A DNA stretch of 64,000 nucleotides from positions 1-64,000 of the forward strand of contig JAPLGN010000034.1 of assembly GCA_026390135.1 (NCBI GenBank). The letters run 5' to 3'. Source of the stretch: Campylobacterales bacterium (GTDB lineage Bacteria; Campylobacterota; Campylobacteria; Campylobacterales; Sulfurimonadaceae). Of this stretch, positions 6,476 through 16,053 are shown piece by piece. Below the pieces are notes generated by a model. It was not told the DNA's origin. It did no database searches and saw only the letters and a program-made list of their open reading frames with translations. How positions within the stretch are numbered: the first letter of the stretch is position 1; each line of letters begins with the position of its first letter. The translations under genes were made by a program, and so were the position numbers.

Positions 6476-7825
6476 CTAGTCGTTAAAAGATTCACTTTTT
6501 TTTGCAACTGTCCCCTCTGGATGTTTGTACCATCCTGGGTCAGCATAATTGCCTTTTGGTTGATCTCTACGTACCTTGACTAAAGTAAACATTCCACCCA
6601 TTTCAATGGGTCCAAATGGTCCTTGTCCGGTCATCATCGGAAGTGTATTTTCTGGCAATGTCATCCCCATATTGGCCATATCTTGCATCTCAGCCATTCC
6701 ATTTTTCCCCATAGGCATATACATATAATCGGGCATCAGATCACTAATTTTTTCGCTAAGATCATCTTGTTTTACTCCGATCATATTGGGTACAGTATGT
6801 CCCATCGGTCCCATCGTATGGTGTGCTTTATGGCAGTGAAATGACCAATCTCCCTCTTGCGTTGCTATAAACTCGATAGCCCTTATCGCCCCGACTGGGA
6901 TATCCGCTGTCACCTCCGGCCATCTCGCACTTTTAGGAACCCATCCGCCATCGGTGCAGGTTACCTCAAATGGATGTCCGTGCATATGGATCGGATGGTT
7001 GGTCATCGTTAGATTCCCCACGCGGATACGGACACGATCACCTACTCGCACATTCATAGAATCAATTCCAGGAAAGACACGACTGTTAAAACTCCACAGA
7101 TTAAACTCAGTCATCGTTGAGGGATTTGGCGTATAGGTTCCGGGGGTAACGTCGTAGCTGGCAAGGAGAAAACAAAAATCGCGATCGACACGGTGCTCTT
7201 GCGGTTTTTTCGGATGGATTATAAACATCCCCATCATCCCCATCGCCATCTGCACCATCTCATCGGCGTGAGGATGATACATAAATGTCCCGCTTTGACG
7301 GAGGGTAAACTCATAGACATAGGTTTCACCCGGAACGATAGCACTCTGTGTCAAGCCGCCGACGCCGTCCATTCCGTTGGGAAGAATAAGACCGTGCCAA
7401 TGGATCGTCGTGTGTTCGGGAAGTTTGTTGGTTACGATCAGGCGTACACGATCTCCCTCAACTGCCTCGATCGTCGGTCCCGGAGAAGTACCGTTGTATC
7501 CCCAGCAGTTCACCACCATGCCTGGAGAAAATTCACGCACTACCGGTTCAGCTATGATGCGAAATTCTTTTACTCCCTCTTTCATCTCATACGGAAGGCT
7601 CCATCCGTTCAGTGTCACAATGGGATTATAATTTTTCCCTTCTTGCGACGTGATAAGCGTAGCAGGTGAGAGGACACGTTTCGGATCTTTGACAAGGGTG
7701 AGTTTACGATTTTTAGATGGCGTTTCACAATGGTTTTTCTCCTGAGCACGAGAGGTCGAAGTAACTGCCGCCGATGCAATCAACGCCGCACCTAATCCTA
7801 AAAAATCTCTTCTGTCATGTTTCAT
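6476..7825 (-). CDS. Tat-exported multicopper oxidase with Met-rich tail
   Basis: This 449-residue protein starts with a Tat signal (RRDFLG followed by a hydrophobic stretch), so it should fold in the cytoplasm and act in the periplasm. Copper ligands are HWHG (142-145), YHPH (183-186), HPIHMHG (277-283) and HCHKAHHTM (330-338), with C331 as the type 1 cysteine. Only about 40 residues separate the first cupredoxin domain from the second, so the middle domain of CueO/CopA-type three-domain enzymes seems to be missing. Residues 363-412 are rich in methionine (MYMPMG, MANMGM, MMTG), as in proteins that bind Cu(I). Oxidation of Cu(I) to Cu(II) for copper tolerance is the likely role. It is the last gene of the copper operon, and its start overlaps the TolC-like gene by 4 bases. 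Confidence 0.9.
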   Translation of the reverse strand: MKHDRRDFLGLGAALIASAAVTSTSRAQEKNHCETPSKNRKLTLVKDPKRVLSPATLITSQEGKNYNPIVTLNGWSLPYEMKEGVKEFRIIAEPVVREFSPGMVVNCWGYNGTSPGPTIEAVEGDRVRLIVTNKLPEHTTIHWHGLILPNGMDGVGGLTQSAIVPGETYVYEFTLRQSGTFMYHPHADEMVQMAMGMMGMFIIHPKKPQEHRVDRDFCFLLASYDVTPGTYTPNPSTMTEFNLWSFNSRVFPGIDSMNVRVGDRVRIRVGNLTMTNHPIHMHGHPFEVTCTDGGWVPKSARWPEVTADIPVGAIRAIEFIATQEGDWSFHCHKAHHTMGPMGHTVPNMIGVKQDDLSEKISDLMPDYMYMPMGKNGMAEMQDMANMGMTLPENTLPMMTGQGPFGPIEMGGMFTLVKVRRDQPKGNYADPGWYKHPEGTVAKKSESFND

Positions 7826-9177
7826 AGTGCATCCTCAATGTTCTTGCCGCCGATCGTATAAACTAAATCCGCCTGTGATTTCCGGTATTCCCCTATCGCT
7901 ATCACTTCTTGTATCTTTGCCTCACTGTAGCGGCGCTGATCTGTAAGAAGCTCATAGATACCGTCCAGCATACCATTATAGTAACGCTGTGTTTCTTCCA
8001 TAATATTTTGATTTATTGTTACAATATTAGTTTGATATTCTTGTGCAGCATCATACGCATAATGCGAGAGAGCATAAGCTTCACGTGTTTGGCTTCTGGC
8101 ATTCACCGCCATTTCATAGAGTCGTTGCACGCTTTGATTGTAGTAGGCTTGAGTACGGCTTAGTCGTCCCTGCCCCACATCAAAAATAGGAATGGGGATT
8201 TTGAGCCCGATTGTATTAAAACGTGCAGTATCGGTACTTTTTTCACTTCCCCCTTCCAAGGTTACCTCAGAAAGCAGTCGTGTATTTTGGGTATATCCCG
8301 CCTCTTTCGCCGCATATTCAACACTTTTCATCGCTGCAGCAATGTCAAGGCGATTTTGAATTGCCATCTGTTCAAGTGCGTCACTTTTTGGAAATGTTGC
8401 AGATAGACGCAATGGCTCATTGCTCAATGTATATGCGGTTTGTTCTGCGTACACTCCCATCATTTTATTGAGAGCTTCACGGGCTGTAGCATCGTCTCTG
8501 TGAAGGCGAATCGATTCAAGCCGTGCATGGGCGTATTCATCTTGGATTTTTAAATAATCCCTTTTGGAAAGATTTCCTGCCGTATATTGCCGTATAGCAA
8601 GTTGCAAAGATACTTCATACGATTTAAGCACCTCAGCATTTAATCGGACTGCCTCTTGTGAAACACTTGCATCGATATAGCACTTTCTCGCATCCCTGAC
8701 ACTGCGAAGCACTTCATCTCCGACACTCAGTTTTGTCTCTTCAAGAGCCAATCCCCCGAGTTCTTTGCGTAGTGGGATCCAGAGCAAATCCAGAAATGCC
8801 AATTCCAATGTCACACCCGATGTACTCACACCACCACCGTGCCCGACTGAATAGCCAAGTAATGGATTACTCATCAATCCCGCCTGCACAAGATCGCTTT
8901 GTGCAATTCCTATCCGCTCGTATGTTTGCTGCAAGGCACGATTATTAATGAGAGTGATGCGAACGGTATTCTCTTCACTTAGTGGTTCTTTTAATAACGT
9001 ATTGACACGTATTTGGGCTTCATCGGCTTCTTTTGGTGTTTTAATCCACGTCAGTTCTCCCGTTCCTCTATTTTTTGTCATCTGATTCATAGAATCAAAT
9101 ACGTCTTTTTGAGAAATAGTCGAACAACCCGATAATACAAGTATTGTTACGAATGATAAAAGAATCTGTCTTTTCAT
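7822..9177 (-). CDS. TolC/CusC-family outer-membrane efflux lipoprotein
   Basis: This protein has 451 residues and a lipoprotein signal (VLSGCS, C18). Two related halves are rich in long amphipathic helices, as expected for an outer-membrane factor trimer with a periplasmic tunnel. It sits between a CusF-like chaperone gene and a multicopper oxidase gene with 4-base overlaps on both sides, so it probably serves copper removal like CusC. No CusA/CusB pump or adaptor is encoded in this operon, so it must borrow an inner-membrane partner or act in a different way. The family assignment is firm; the copper role is inferred from context. Confidence 0.87.
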   Translation of the reverse strand: MKRQILLSFVTILVLSGCSTISQKDVFDSMNQMTKNRGTGELTWIKTPKEADEAQIRVNTLLKEPLSEENTVRITLINNRALQQTYERIGIAQSDLVQAGLMSNPLLGYSVGHGGGVSTSGVTLELAFLDLLWIPLRKELGGLALEETKLSVGDEVLRSVRDARKCYIDASVSQEAVRLNAEVLKSYEVSLQLAIRQYTAGNLSKRDYLKIQDEYAHARLESIRLHRDDATAREALNKMMGVYAEQTAYTLSNEPLRLSATFPKSDALEQMAIQNRLDIAAAMKSVEYAAKEAGYTQNTRLLSEVTLEGGSEKSTDTARFNTIGLKIPIPIFDVGQGRLSRTQAYYNQSVQRLYEMAVNARSQTREAYALSHYAYDAAQEYQTNIVTINQNIMEETQRYYNGMLDGIYELLTDQRRYSEAKIQEVIAIGEYRKSQADLVYTIGGKNIEDAL

Positions 9178-9371
9178 TTTTGGCTATCATGATATGTCGT
9201 GTTTTGATCGCGTTCTTGAATACGGACTTCTTCTCGAACATCTATCGGTGGTTGTATCGGAATATAGACGCTTTTCCCTTCCCTTGCATGTACTGAAATA
9301 GGTGACTTAACCCCTTCATCAGCATTTAGAGAGATGATGGTTACCACAAGGAGAAAAGCTGAACGGTTCAT
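9174..9371 (-). CDS. Small secreted protein of the copper operon, unknown function
   Basis: This 65-residue protein has an N-terminal hydrophobic segment (SAFLLVVTIISL, cleavage probable near NADEG) followed by about 48 polar residues with no cysteine, no methionine and one or two histidines. It overlaps both neighbours by 4 bases (stop and start interlocked), which argues that it is translated. I do not recognise a family. Because it sits between a CusF-like protein and the outer-membrane factor, a periplasmic accessory or linker role is plausible but unsupported by motifs. Its lack of metal ligands argues against a metallochaperone. Confidence 0.6.
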   Translation of the reverse strand: MNRSAFLLVVTIISLNADEGVKSPISVHAREGKSVYIPIQPPIDVREEVRIQERDQNTTYHDSQK

Positions 9372-9709
9372 TGTTTTTTCATCCGAACGATTACATTTTT
9401 CCCGTCTTTTTGTATAAATTCAAAATCAACTCTGTCACCCACGTTCAAAGTGTGTGTCAGCTCATGATCGATCACTTCAAAAGGCATATTCATAGAAGGC
9501 CACTTTAGTACAGGAATCGGGTCATGAAAAATACGCAAACTTTCGTGGTTATCGGCAACCTGCTTTACTGTTCCGCTGGCATGAATGGTTTGCTCGGACA
9601 TAACCGTATTGTTAGAATGTGAATGATCTTCACCCATATCCATACCCCACACCACTGGACTCACTGCCAATACGCCAACATATACCGCGCTAAGAATTTT
9701 TATTTTCAT
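9368..9709 (-). CDS. CusF-like periplasmic copper chaperone
   Basis: This 113-residue protein has a signal peptide (residues 1-22) and a His/Met-rich segment (MDMGEDHSHS). The core carries all four CusF copper ligands in the right order: H62, W70, M73 and M75 (FHDPIPVLKWPSMNM). In E. coli CusF, His and two Met bind Cu(I)/Ag(I) and the Trp caps the site by a cation-pi contact. It should carry copper in the periplasm, to the multicopper oxidase or an efflux channel. It is the first gene of a four-gene minus-strand operon. The ribosome-binding site AAGGAGAGG lies just upstream of the ATG, and a perfect inverted repeat lies about 65 bases upstream of the start. Confidence 0.88.
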   Translation of the reverse strand: MKIKILSAVYVGVLAVSPVVWGMDMGEDHSHSNNTVMSEQTIHASGTVKQVADNHESLRIFHDPIPVLKWPSMNMPFEVIDHELTHTLNVGDRVDFEFIQKDGKNVIVRMKKQ

Positions 9710-12066: not shown

Positions 12067-13077
12067 ATGATGCACACAATACCTATTGAAACCTTTTTAG
12101 CCTCTCTTGATAATTATGATCTGATTATCGATGCCCGAAGCCCATGCGAATATGGCGAATCTCATGTTCCGCGTGCACACAATTTTTACGCGCTCAGCGA
12201 TGAAGAACATGCTCAAGTAGGAACTATCTATAAACAGATATCTCCGTTTGAAGCACGTCTAAAAGGCGCTTCTTTCGTCTGTCTCAATGCCGCACGTCAT
12301 ATCCAAGAACTCTATCCTGCCTACAATCCAGGATCAAAAATCGCGATTTATTGCGCCCGTGGAGGAATGCGTTCTTCCTCACTTGGAACCATCTTTTCGA
12401 GTATTGGCTATCCCATCGAACGTGTTATCGGTGGGTATAAATCGTACCGAACCTTTGTCACTGGGTATCTTGAAAATCTTCCTCCGATTCATTTTTTGAC
12501 ACTAATGGGGCATACGGGATGCGGGAAAAGCGATCTTCTCCAAGAGTTGACCAATGTCATAGATTTGGAAAAAATGGCACATCATTACGGCTCGGTATTT
12601 GGTGATGTCAATGGTGCTCAACCCACCCAAAAAGAATTTCAAAATCGTTTGGTTCACGCTGTTTTGGGATTAGACCTAAGTCAGGGTGCTTTTGTGGAAG
12701 CAGAAAGCAAACGAATCGGAAAAATAATGCTCCCAAACTCCCTGTATCATCAGATGGATTCAGGATTTCGTATAGAGATCACTGCACCCATCGAACAACG
12801 TGTATCACGGATTATGCGAATGTACGATCACATGGATGAGAGCTTTTTCATGGGACGAATGGAGCGAATTTCTCCCTACATCAGCCGCGATGATAAAGCC
12901 TCCACTATTGCCGCATTTCTTAACGGTGACTTAGCACGTGTTTCTGAAATATTATTGACCCAGTATTACGATAAAGTCTACAAAGTCACCATCAAACCTA
13001 GCATCACCATCTGTAACGATAACCACGCTAAAACCATAGAAATATTGAAGGGGATTCAGGATGAACAACGCGTCTAA
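12067..13077 (+). CDS. selU: tRNA 2-selenouridine synthase
   Basis: This 336-residue SelU/MnmH has an N-terminal rhodanese domain with the active-site cysteine C96 in CARGGMRSS and a P-loop GHTGCGKS at 148-155. The enzyme replaces sulfur by selenium in 2-thiouridine at the wobble position of tRNAs for Lys, Glu and Gln, using selenophosphate. It is the first gene of a selenium operon and its end overlaps selD by 17 bases, so selenophosphate maker and user are coupled. Two ATGs (12067 and 12070) are possible starts. Length and motifs are normal for the family. Confidence 0.95.
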   Translation: MMHTIPIETFLASLDNYDLIIDARSPCEYGESHVPRAHNFYALSDEEHAQVGTIYKQISPFEARLKGASFVCLNAARHIQELYPAYNPGSKIAIYCARGGMRSSSLGTIFSSIGYPIERVIGGYKSYRTFVTGYLENLPPIHFLTLMGHTGCGKSDLLQELTNVIDLEKMAHHYGSVFGDVNGAQPTQKEFQNRLVHAVLGLDLSQGAFVEAESKRIGKIMLPNSLYHQMDSGFRIEITAPIEQRVSRIMRMYDHMDESFFMGRMERISPYISRDDKASTIAAFLNGDLARVSEILLTQYYDKVYKVTIKPSITICNDNHAKTIEILKGIQDEQRV

Positions 13078-14095
13078 GCTTACAAAATTCGTCCGTGCTT
13101 CGGGATGCGCTGCGAAACTCTCTCCCGGTTCGCTGGAAAATGTCACGTGTCATTTAAAATCGTTTCACAAAGACTTACTGGTGGGATTTGAAGGGAACGA
13201 GGACGCTGGAGTTTACCGAATCACGGACGATTTGGCGATGGTTCAGACGGTCGATTTTATCACTCCCGTCGTCGATGACCCGTTTATCTACGGTCAAATC
13301 GCGGCGGCGAATTCTCTCAGTGATGTCTTTGCCATGGGAGGCGATGCGAAAACTGCCCTCAACCTCGTAGGATTTGACGGGAAAAACCATCATACTGAGA
13401 TTCTGACTGAGATTTTACGTGGTGGAATGAGCAAAGTGCAAGAGTGTGGAGCCGTTATCGTAGGCGGTCATACCATCGAAACACCGGAGATGATTTACGG
13501 TCTTTCGTGTACCGGATTTGTCCATCCAAATAAGATTCTGCGTAACAATACAGTGCAGGAGGGGGATATGATTCTCCTCACCAAACCTTTGGGATTGGGA
13601 ATTTTAACGACGGCAATCAAAGCCGATTTGTTGGATGAGAGCACCGTTATCAAAGTCGCCGACACCATGCGCACCCTCAATTATAAAGCGTCATTAATCG
13701 CACGAGAATTTGACGCCCATGCGTGTACCGATGTGACGGGATTTGGATTTCTTGGACATTTGCGTGAAATGAGCGCTGGTGCGAAAACGATTCAAGTCGA
13801 TGCCTCAACTATCCCATTTTTCCCCGAAGCAATGGGAATGGCAGAAATGGGGATTATCCCTGCCGGAAGCTATGCCAACAAAGAGTATCTCCAATCGCAC
13901 GTCCATTTCAAACGCAACATTGGAGCCGATTTGGAGATGATTCTTTTTGATGCACAGACATCAGGGGGTCTTTTAATCTCGGCAACACCAAAAGATGCTA
14001 AAAAGATGGTGGAACGCTGTCTAAGTGAAGGAATAAGCGCTGTCATTGTTGCCGAAGTCGTTGCTAAAACGGATTGGGATATTGTAATTTATTAA
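13061..14095 (+). CDS. selD: Selenide, water dikinase (selenophosphate synthetase)
   Basis: This 344-residue SelD makes selenophosphate from selenide and ATP. The N-terminal active-site loop reads SGCAAKLSPGSL: C16 takes the place of the catalytic Cys/Sec, K19 is the conserved lysine, and the second cysteine of the E. coli GCGCK motif is absent (A). AIRS-type ATP-binding motifs follow (DDLAMVQTVDF, ANSLSDVFAMGG, GGHTIE, DVTGFGFLGH, TSGGLL). Overlap with selU and a 13-base gap to the next gene place it in the middle of a five-gene operon. selA, selB and the tRNA-Sec gene are not in this window, so only the tRNA-modification branch of selenium use is seen here. Confidence 0.96.
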   Translation: MNNASKLTKFVRASGCAAKLSPGSLENVTCHLKSFHKDLLVGFEGNEDAGVYRITDDLAMVQTVDFITPVVDDPFIYGQIAAANSLSDVFAMGGDAKTALNLVGFDGKNHHTEILTEILRGGMSKVQECGAVIVGGHTIETPEMIYGLSCTGFVHPNKILRNNTVQEGDMILLTKPLGLGILTTAIKADLLDESTVIKVADTMRTLNYKASLIAREFDAHACTDVTGFGFLGHLREMSAGAKTIQVDASTIPFFPEAMGMAEMGIIPAGSYANKEYLQSHVHFKRNIGADLEMILFDAQTSGGLLISATPKDAKKMVERCLSEGISAVIVAEVVAKTDWDIVIY

Positions 14096-14108
14096 AAAAG
14101 GAAACATA

Positions 14109-15194
14109 ATGCACAGACGAGAATTTATCAAAATAACTGCTATGGCAGGAAGCATATCTGTCCTTCCTTCTTTTCTTACCGCTTCCGTAGAGATGAAAAA
14201 TACTTTGGCGCTGTATGACATCCAATGGAAATTTGATCTCACGGCTCATGATGCAAAAGAATGTGCATTGTGGATTCCTCTTCCTAGCGATATATCAGGA
14301 TTTCAAAGTGTTCTTCAAATCGGAACTGAAGGAACAGCTAAACAAAGTTTTCAAACGACTCATAATAATTACGAATGTGCAACATTTTATGCTTACTGGG
14401 ATAAAAATACCACGAATAAAACCGTTGATCTGTCGATGAAAGTCGCGTTACGTGATCGTCAATGTGACTTTAAACGTACACGAGTCTGCCCTGACAGTAT
14501 CGAAGAAGCCAAAGAATTTTTAGCCCCAACAGCCCACATTCCCACCGATGGAGCCGTTGCCAAAATAGCCAAAAAAATCCTAAGCAACGAAAAAGATCCT
14601 CTCAAAAAAGCTCGAAAGATATACGACTGGATTATTGCCAACGGTTACCGCGATGAGAGTGTCCACGGTTGCGGCGTAGGAAGTCCCAATGCAATGTTAG
14701 CACAGCTCGAAAAAGATGGTCGCATGGGAGGGAAATGCCTCGATATGTCTGCACTTACGGTTGCCCTCATGCGAGCATCAGGAATTCCTGCGCGAGAAGT
14801 TTTAGGAATTCGTGTTGGACCTTCACGACTCTCTCCTGCTTTTGGAGCGAAAGAAGATATTACCAAATCTCAACACTGCAAGCTGGAGTTTTTTATCCCC
14901 ACACTGGGATGGGTACCGTGTGATCCTGCGGATATTACCAAATTGGTGTTAAAAGAAAATCTTGAAAAAACTTCTCCCCGTGTCCTTGAACTTGCCGATA
15001 AATTTTTTGGCTTTTGGGAAAACAACTGGATGGCGTTCAATCATGCACGCGATTTTGACCTCTATCCTGCCAATACTCAAGGTTCATTGGATTCGTTTGG
15101 CTATGCATACGCTGAAATAGATGGCGAATACCTCGATCCTTTCGAACCTGCACACTACCGCTACAGTATCCTTTCTAAAAAAGTGACTTTATGA
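14109..15194 (+). CDS. Tat-exported transglutaminase-like protein in the selenium operon
   Basis: This 361-residue protein has a Tat signal (HRREFIK, then a hydrophobic stretch up to about residue 26). Residues 150-275 form a transglutaminase-like (papain-fold) core: C210 in GGKCLDMS, H256 in SQHCKLEFF and D272 in VPCDPAD give a Cys-His-Asp triad. Such domains act as cysteine proteases, cross-linkers or amidases; which of these applies here is unknown. It lies 13 bases after selD and overlaps the TusA/MerT fusion gene by 4 bases, so it belongs to the operon. A periplasmic thiol enzyme in a selenium operon is unexpected. The N-terminal 30-140 region is beta-rich and I did not recognise it. Confidence 0.8.
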   Translation: MHRREFIKITAMAGSISVLPSFLTASVEMKNTLALYDIQWKFDLTAHDAKECALWIPLPSDISGFQSVLQIGTEGTAKQSFQTTHNNYECATFYAYWDKNTTNKTVDLSMKVALRDRQCDFKRTRVCPDSIEEAKEFLAPTAHIPTDGAVAKIAKKILSNEKDPLKKARKIYDWIIANGYRDESVHGCGVGSPNAMLAQLEKDGRMGGKCLDMSALTVALMRASGIPAREVLGIRVGPSRLSPAFGAKEDITKSQHCKLEFFIPTLGWVPCDPADITKLVLKENLEKTSPRVLELADKFFGFWENNWMAFNHARDFDLYPANTQGSLDSFGYAYAEIDGEYLDPFEPAHYRYSILSKKVTL

Positions 15195-15799
15195 TTCTCG
15201 ACTGCCGTGATATGGAGTGTCCCCGTCCCGTACTGGAAACTAAAAAAGTATTGGATGCCCTCCCCGAAGATGCCACCCTCGTCCTAGAGGTAAACACCCT
15301 CAGCGGTCGTGAAAACTGCAAACGCTTTGCCCTCTCACAACACTGCACCTTTACCGAAGAACTCCTAGAAGATGGTGCCACACGATTGACCATCACCAAA
15401 GGGCTAGGCTATACACAGAGTGATGACGAGAACCCTCTCGATACGATGATGCAGCAAGAGCGCCGTAGTGCCGTCCTCGTCCTCTCAGGGGCATTGGTCA
15501 CGGCACTGTTATCTGCCTCATGTTGTTTGGTTCCTACACTGTTTATGGTGTTTGGGATTTCCTTTGCAGGGGTTATCAATGTCCCCGAGTTGAACAGTTA
15601 TCGCTGGATTTTTACTGCTGTTGCCGTGGTGATGCTCTCTATTGGCTTTTACCAAATGGTGATTAAAAAACAAATCGAATGTGACTGTGAACCGAGTTTA
15701 ACCTCTAAAATTCTGATAACGCTTTTTTGGGCACTGTTTCTCTTTAGCCTCGCGGCTCTTTTTTATCCCTATTATGAAGCGTTACTATGGGGAGAATAA
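15191..15799 (+). CDS. TusA/YedF-like domain fused to a MerT-like membrane transporter
   Basis: Residues 1-72 form a TusA/SirA domain with the motif ECPRPVLETKK (C10), closest in style to the N-terminal half of YedF, a protein often found near selD. Residues 95-200 form a MerT-like three-helix membrane domain: a cysteine pair in helix 1 (C111-C112, ASCCLVP), helix 2 at about 137-157, a cytoplasmic loop with IECDCE (C164, C166), and helix 3 ending in LFYPYY. MerT carries Hg(II) across the inner membrane using just such cysteine pairs. With the N-terminus inside, the TusA domain and the CDC loop both face the cytoplasm, so an imported thiophilic substrate could be handed on internally. The start overlaps the preceding stop by 4 bases. 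Confidence 0.82.
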   Translation: MILDCRDMECPRPVLETKKVLDALPEDATLVLEVNTLSGRENCKRFALSQHCTFTEELLEDGATRLTITKGLGYTQSDDENPLDTMMQQERRSAVLVLSGALVTALLSASCCLVPTLFMVFGISFAGVINVPELNSYRWIFTAVAVVMLSIGFYQMVIKKQIECDCEPSLTSKILITLFWALFLFSLAALFYPYYEALLWGE

Positions 15800-16053
15800 C
15801 ACTGGGAATTTTACTGTTAGCCTCTCTCGCCTACTCGCGCGAATGGAACCTGCACATCGGCGGGATGCACTGCATTGCCTGCACTCTGGCCGTCAAAAAA
15901 GCACTGCTTAGTGTTCATGGCGTCCAAATAGCAAAAGTAAATTTTAAAAATGAGAGTGCACTTGTAATTACGGATGAGAATATTAGCCTAAAAATGATGC
16001 AAGATGCCGTAGCGCAGACAGGCTACACGGCGACATTGGCAACTAAAAACTAG
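15787..16053 (+). CDS. MerP-like periplasmic HMA-domain protein
   Basis: This 88-residue protein has a short signal peptide (residues 1-16, ending LAYS) and one heavy-metal-associated domain with GMHCIAC (C28, C31), then VKKALLSVHGV and a C-terminal GYTATL segment. This is the layout of MerP, which binds thiophilic metal ions in the periplasm and passes them to MerT. It overlaps the TusA/MerT fusion gene by 13 bases and ends the selenium operon. Its cargo could be Hg(II), Cu(I) or, more speculatively, a selenium species. No mercuric reductase gene is nearby. Confidence 0.85.
   Translation: MGRITLGILLLASLAYSREWNLHIGGMHCIACTLAVKKALLSVHGVQIAKVNFKNESALVITDENISLKMMQDAVAQTGYTATLATKN

Follow-up and report, generated by a model that had tools for sequence, protein, structure and literature searches.

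A five-gene cluster at positions 12067-16053 of the window, that is, of the whole 64,000-nucleotide stretch analysed from contig JAPLGN010000034.1 of a Campylobacterales bacterium (assembly GCA_026390135.1), joins the selenium genes selU and selD to genes for an exported transglutaminase-like protein (Tgl), a TusA-MerT fusion and a MerP-like HMA protein. We hold with moderate confidence that the function of Tgl-(TusA)MerT-HMA is to acquire selenium and relay it, as a dedicated module working upstream of SelD. The link of the module to selenium is strong and a dedicated selenium role is well supported, as sel genes adjoin the module in many lineages, two genome profiles place it in SelD-positive genomes only, and MerA is rare where it occurs. 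The preliminary description of this DNA had proposed such a path; its selenium role stands, whilst the selenium nature of the substrate, the inward direction of transport and each handover along the relay, including that from TusA to SelD, are what we infer.

All five genes are transcribed in one direction, on the forward strand. The selU gene (mnmH, 12067..13077, 336 aa), for tRNA 2-selenouridine synthase, scores 345 bits against NF008750 (cut-off 241) and 307 bits against TIGR03167. It is followed by selD (13061..14095, 344 aa), for the cysteine form of selenophosphate synthetase, with a GCAAK motif and 356 bits against TIGR00476 (cut-off 125). Tgl (14109..15194, 361 aa) matches PF01841 (Transglut_core, 4.5e-19), the fusion (15191..15799, 202 aa) matches PF01206 (8e-12), PF02411 (4e-8) and the N-terminal half of TIGR03527 (1.4e-12), and the HMA protein (15787..16053, 88 aa), with a signal peptide and a GMHCIAC motif, matches PF00403 (2.9e-10). 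selU and selD overlap by 17 bases, Tgl and the fusion by 4 bases and the fusion and the HMA gene by 13 bases; 13 bases separate selD from Tgl, and a convergent gene ends 7 bases past the HMA stop. The tight cluster reported previously was thus recovered in full. An artefact of assembly or reading frame can be dismissed for the fusion, because TusA and MerT share one frame in a same-genus genome too (78% identical), as well as in further families of the class. Mercury genes had been said to be missing, and merA and merR were indeed not found in the stretch read; that account has, however, to be corrected for a copper-type cluster at 6476-9709 on the reverse strand, 2.4 kb upstream of selU, with a Tat multicopper oxidase (recognized by eye), an outer-membrane efflux protein and a CusF-like protein.

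Module and sel genes adjoin repeatedly. A selD gene is expected by chance in a 16-kb stretch of a 2-Mb genome in ∼1% of cases, so the finding of a sel gene within 8 kb at 15 of 19 TusA-MerT fusion loci lies far above chance (two of the remaining four are on truncated contigs; the count leaves out L078, a TusA-DsrE/YedF locus). In 12 of the 20 Tgl-bearing genera of the class, selD lies no more than 10 kb from the module, and a sel gene was present within the locus at 26 of the 44 Campylobacterota loci from a genome scan. The arrangements differ. The order selU-selD-Tgl-fusion-HMA is shared by the window and about ten Sulfuricurvum-type loci; G004 has selA-selB-yedF-Tgl-TusAMerT-HMA-dsrE-selD, selD is convergent with the module in G074 and divergent from Tgl in Arcobacter relatives, and selA-selB converge with the module in G133. 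At Nautilia-type loci a separate gene of the DsrE family adjoins selD, in many cases as the next gene after HMA (L036, 8601-8957; L037, L038, L078 and L085); it is likely to encode a further selenium/sulfur carrier. The preliminary description had called for a comparison of the fusion's position beside sel genes with that beside merA or copper genes; this showed sel genes adjoining in many lineages and MerA rarely even co-present.

Tgl also adjoins selD where no MerT is found, in Rhizobium, S. mexicanum (26 bases apart), S. meliloti pSymA, Phyllobacterium, Terrarubrum and Rhizobium T1473. It lies near selA/selB too in Rhizobium, Sinorhizobium, Phyllobacterium, Terrarubrum and Cupriavidus, the last with the order fdnG-selA-selB-Tgl-selD, and between selB and selA on two Paracoccus plasmids. 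For Alloyangia, Salipiger and Paracoccus AK26 the analysis covered the plasmids, on which no sel genes were seen near Tgl. On Paracoccus ferrooxidans pFER4 (L154, 11593-12723), genes for a TusA-like protein, a DsrE and a small CVSCLAP membrane protein lie near Tgl, a cysteine desulfurase and selA/selB; the small protein, which is unclassified, may serve as a substitute membrane partner in the absence of MerT.

Co-occurrence with SelD was assessed in two profiles. Strong Tgl matches (E < 1e-100) occur in 89 of the 298 genomes of the class and SelD over its cut-off in 223; all 89 strong-Tgl genomes have SelD (a probability of 10^-13.7 on the assumption, not valid here, of independent genomes). 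An exact test within genera, limited to those genera of the class in which SelD varies (g27, g9, g10, g43, g32 and g49), gave P = 0.0011 for Tgl and SelD going together. For the order that includes Citrobacter freundii, Tgl was found in 19 of 296 genomes and SelD in all 19 of these against 109 overall (10^-8.7, uncorrected for kinship). Genomes are non-independent samples, with kinship controlled only within genera of the one class, and single cases may be distorted by contamination or incompleteness of metagenome-assembled genomes (MAGs). The non-Campylobacterota genomes of the scan had SelD in 24 of 26 cases. Apart from two MAGs with a lone Tgl, the module was seen in SelD-positive genomes only, with recurrent clustering with sel genes. 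Tgl is thus nearly restricted to selenium-using bacteria and the module therefore probably helps them to acquire selenium.

The conserved unit is Tgl-MerT-HMA, with the HMA gene third, in the same order in every intact module read in the class-wide fusion search (298 genomes, neighbourhoods read). This cassette occurs across the Campylobacterota class and in Gammaproteobacteria. TusA is fused in families f1, f4, f5, f10 and f11; MerT stands without TusA in f7, f3, f2 and some members of f1, f4 and f10. A Tgl profile scan of 84,980 species genomes, from which the 80 best loci were taken, found the cassette without the TusA fusion, at numerous sites that bear no relation to each other, in Citrobacter, Leclercia, Buttiauxella, Kluyvera, Serratia, Providencia, Shewanella and Pasteurellaceae; some Beta- and Alphaproteobacterial MAGs had Tgl by itself. 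In Citrobacter freundii M-21 (L115, 3092-12638), nik-like ABC transporter genes flank the cassette on one side and hypABCDE on the other, as judged by eye; a nickel/hydrogenase link was rejected because other Citrobacter and Gammaproteobacterial loci differ. With a Citrobacter cassette as query, at megablast sensitivity, the cassette was not found in 5,426 Escherichia coli genomes. The TusA fusion is a Campylobacterota elaboration, confined there among the loci read. The preliminary description had centred on this fusion, which is indeed sel-linked, but the widest selenium-linked part is Tgl, which also stands beside selD without MerT or MerP in Alpha- and Betaproteobacteria.

Tgl belongs to the transglutaminase-like cysteine protease superfamily, as seen from the PF01841 match, from an AlphaFold2 model (mean pLDDT 90.6) whose nearest PDB structure is 3isr (Foldseek E 8e-16), and from the invariance of C210, H256 and D272. 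It begins MHRREFIK, a twin-arginine signal; an RR signal is found in most homologs, with a standard signal peptide in its place in Pasteurellaceae and some others. In an alignment of 50 Tgl sequences from Campylobacterota and Gamma-, Beta- and Alphaproteobacteria, the invariant residues were W174, R181, C188, C210, H256, C257, D272, W303-E304, N306-W307 and R314-D315-F316, and C188, C210, H256, C257 and D272 are also kept in five further plasmid homologs. C210, H256 and D272 are expected to form the catalytic triad, with C188 and C257 as additional cysteines. The fold and the catalytic cysteine are common to the bacterial transglutaminase-like cysteine proteases (3isr; TgpA), whereas C188, C257 and the WENNW and RDF motifs are features of the Tgl subfamily; 3isr has no cysteine at the C188 position. 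All three cysteines are lost, with other motifs partly kept, in eight remote homologs of family f2 (L143-L150, from genomes G159, G212, G226, G041, G072, G062, G267 and G296), none of which adjoins MerT or HMA and four of which are in SelD-less genomes; conservation of the three cysteines thus tracks the module. These eight proteins are possible pseudoenzymes.

In the fusion, TusA covers residues 2-70 and MerT residues 95-195, the latter barely over the Pfam cut-off. Hydropathy gives three membrane helices in the MerT part, which carries C111-C112 and C164/C166; the Cys-Cys pair of the first helix and one loop cysteine are invariant in 25 MerT sequences. The CPxP cysteine is kept in all fused TusA domains, and the CxxC site in all aligned HMA proteins. 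The accepted orientation of MerT has its N-terminus inside, and this would place the N-terminal TusA in the cytoplasm and HMA in the periplasm, with the soft-thiol sites aligned from outside to inside. The best NCBIfam match of the fused TusA domain is the selenium-linked YedF (TIGR03527). The fusion itself is not a YedF by that model, scoring 47.9 bits against 110 with its N-terminal half only, the C-terminal half being MerT. A YedF (TusA-DsrE) adjoins a methyltransferase gene in a genome of the same genus that has no Tgl (G176; L035, 7649-9180). Its TusA domain is 56% identical to that of the fusion, which suggests that the fused TusA was derived from YedF.

Selenite reacts with thiols in the periplasm to give selenotrisulfides. 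We propose that exported Tgl would capture, bind, cleave or free such thiol-bound selenium species through its three-cysteine active site, and that the CxxC site of HMA would take them over. Thiol exchange at the Cys-Cys pair in the membrane and at the cysteine facing the cytoplasm would then let MerT carry selenium across. In Campylobacterota the CPxP cysteine of the fused TusA would pass it to SelD; elsewhere a separate TusA- or YedF-like carrier may take the place of the fused domain.

The end uses of selenium differ amongst module genomes. In the window genome, whose assembly is 82% complete, SelU is present and SelB gave no match above the cut-off. SelB without an intact SelU is found in G133, G004, G225, G273, G106, G203, G292, G026 and G079 and in three Gammaproteobacteria. 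The converse, SelU without SelB at E ≤ 1e-80, applies to G217, G074, G058, G238 and G222 and is less certain, this limit being near the weakest SelB found. One in-frame TGA, probably for selenocysteine, is present in the selD genes of G058 (C1:299645-300562) and G238 (C26:729-1646), where no SelB was seen at that limit; SelB may be divergent in these two genomes. With SelD constant and the end uses varying, a place upstream of SelD is the most likely one for the module.

Several observations weigh against the proposal of selenium acquisition. MerT and HMA families are known for mercury and copper, not selenium. The Alpha- and Betaproteobacterial Tgl proteins without MerT show that import by MerT is not the sole outlet of Tgl. 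Gammaproteobacterial cassettes are not beside sel genes, so that the link there comes from co-occurrence, and many of the 19 Tgl genomes of that group are 1.8-2.5 Mb and may be related. The two SelD-less genomes of the scan (G305 and G319) are Betaproteobacteria-type MAGs with a lone Tgl. Finally, 134 SelD-positive genomes of the class lack the module; because SelD without it is common, the module is accessory and dispensable for selenium use.

The family histories of MerT and HMA, which classically bind mercury and copper, also suggest a protective role in selenium users, with Hg(II), Cu(I) or some other thiophilic metal being bound or transported by the module so that selenide and selenoproteins are shielded from precipitation or inactivation. 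Selenocysteine-containing versions of MerT, HMA and MerA-like proteins are known, and metal resistance is their usual interpretation (NF045683/NF041115; PMC13188914), and the window has its copper cluster upstream. We think such protection unlikely. MerA passed its cut-off in only 3 of 79 module genomes, never near the module, and none was seen in the module neighbourhoods read; a MerT-type importer without MerA would carry metal inward. The near absence of MerA, the exclusivity of SelD and the presence of MerT-free Tgl in sel clusters, including Tgl free of both MerT and HMA beside selD in Alphaproteobacteria, together disfavour mercury handling, and the module is present in the SelU-only window genome. 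Mercury resistance was rejected on the MerA counts, and a copper context because the window's copper cluster is conserved at no related module locus. Mercury detoxification, one form of the metal detoxification offered earlier as an alternative, is therefore not supported. The same co-occurrence and cysteine data would fit a module that sequesters, detoxifies or expels surplus selenium or selenide at the envelope of selenium-concentrating organisms, an export role having been suggested for YedE too (PMC5322559). This kind of control is also improbable, since TusA is a cytoplasmic acceptor/donor carrier, here fused to MerT in Campylobacterota, known MerT proteins import, and the operon that the module forms with selU-selD suggests supply.

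Many Tgl proteins carry a Tat signal, and in Alphaproteobacteria and Cupriavidus the gene has fdnG, fdhE and selAB as neighbours, as might be expected if Tgl helped exported selenoenzymes (formate dehydrogenase-N, for example) to mature in the periplasm or controlled their quality there. This is very unlikely given the SelU-positive window genome with no SelB detected in its incomplete assembly, and it leaves no obvious part for MerT, HMA and TusA. Lastly, the module might have come to lie beside selD in the window lineage by chance or hitch-hiking, and it does lie away from sel genes in several genera of the class and at Gammaproteobacterial loci. The data already contradict this explanation, which we regard as scarcely credible: there are no exceptions in the 108 module genomes of the two profiles, and clustering arose independently and repeatedly in Campylobacterota, Alpha- and Betaproteobacteria.

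Compared with known systems, the module shares with MerT/MerP of the mer operon (and MerTP fusions) the three-helix MerT, its membrane Cys-Cys pair and loop cysteine, and a periplasmic CxxC HMA protein. It differs in having no MerA or MerR, Tgl in front and TusA fused N-terminally, and scores far under the NCBIfam cut-offs (MerT 40.7 of 150 bits, MerP 46.8 of 92.55, MerTP 37.1 of 180). YeeE/YeeD (TsuA/TsuB) take up thiosulfate by means of a membrane importer with a TusA-family partner (PMC11073785), a precedent for a chalcogen importer so equipped, but that membrane protein is unrelated to MerT, sulfur is carried rather than selenium, and there is no Tgl or HMA. Seleno-YedE/YedF, FdhT/FdhU and SelF of Campylobacter, for which selenium acquisition has been shown or proposed (PMC5322559; PMC11237541), resemble the module in pairing a SelD-linked membrane protein with a TusA-domain protein; YedE (10 helices) and DedA are, however, unrelated to MerT, and YedF is TusA-DsrE. 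Among genomes of the class, 43 have both YedE and Tgl, 46 Tgl only and 32 YedE only; given this partial overlap, the idea of the module as a YedE replacement is not supported. YedE (TIGR04112) was searched for in the window genome and not found at E ≤ 1e-15. The MerT/CopZ fusion selenoprotein (NF045683) and the UxxU HMA protein (NF041115) form another selenium-linked MerT-HMA pair, but they contain selenocysteine, whereas the module has cysteine forms throughout and is linked to selenium supply genes; its scores are 26.5 of 375 bits against NF045683 and 48.5 of 95 against NF041115.

The component families are all known already. A literature search, in which subscription journals were thinly covered, found no published description of Tgl or the module with selenium, in agreement with the earlier impression that the arrangement had not been described. 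The one mention that came up is a STRING-table link to YedF, in Slackia, of a transglutaminase-like protein that may or may not belong to the Tgl family (PMC5322559). YedE/FdhT and SelF are known as candidate selenium uptake proteins (PMC5322559; PMC11237541), and reviews of 2022 and 2026 state that a specific high-affinity selenium transport system has not been identified in prokaryotes (PMC9312934; PMC13188914).

The chances seem evenly balanced that this is an unrecognised, widespread selenium-acquisition system. In this reading the three-cysteine periplasmic Tgl would be a new core selenium factor, and a MerT/HMA relay put to a new use (TusA-fused in Campylobacterota) would work with it in Campylobacterota and Gammaproteobacteria to deliver selenium to SelD. 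If so, the module would be a candidate for the missing high-affinity selenium uptake route and, were an uptake role confirmed, a new system in its own right. The annotation 'mercuric transporter MerT family' would then have to change for many genes, which may be unrelated to mercury. The question of how trace selenium enters bacteria and how so reactive an element reaches SelD becomes testable in tractable strains, the relevant hosts being Shewanella, Citrobacter and relatives of Arcobacter and Campylobacter, with the first gene of the module also present in S. meliloti.

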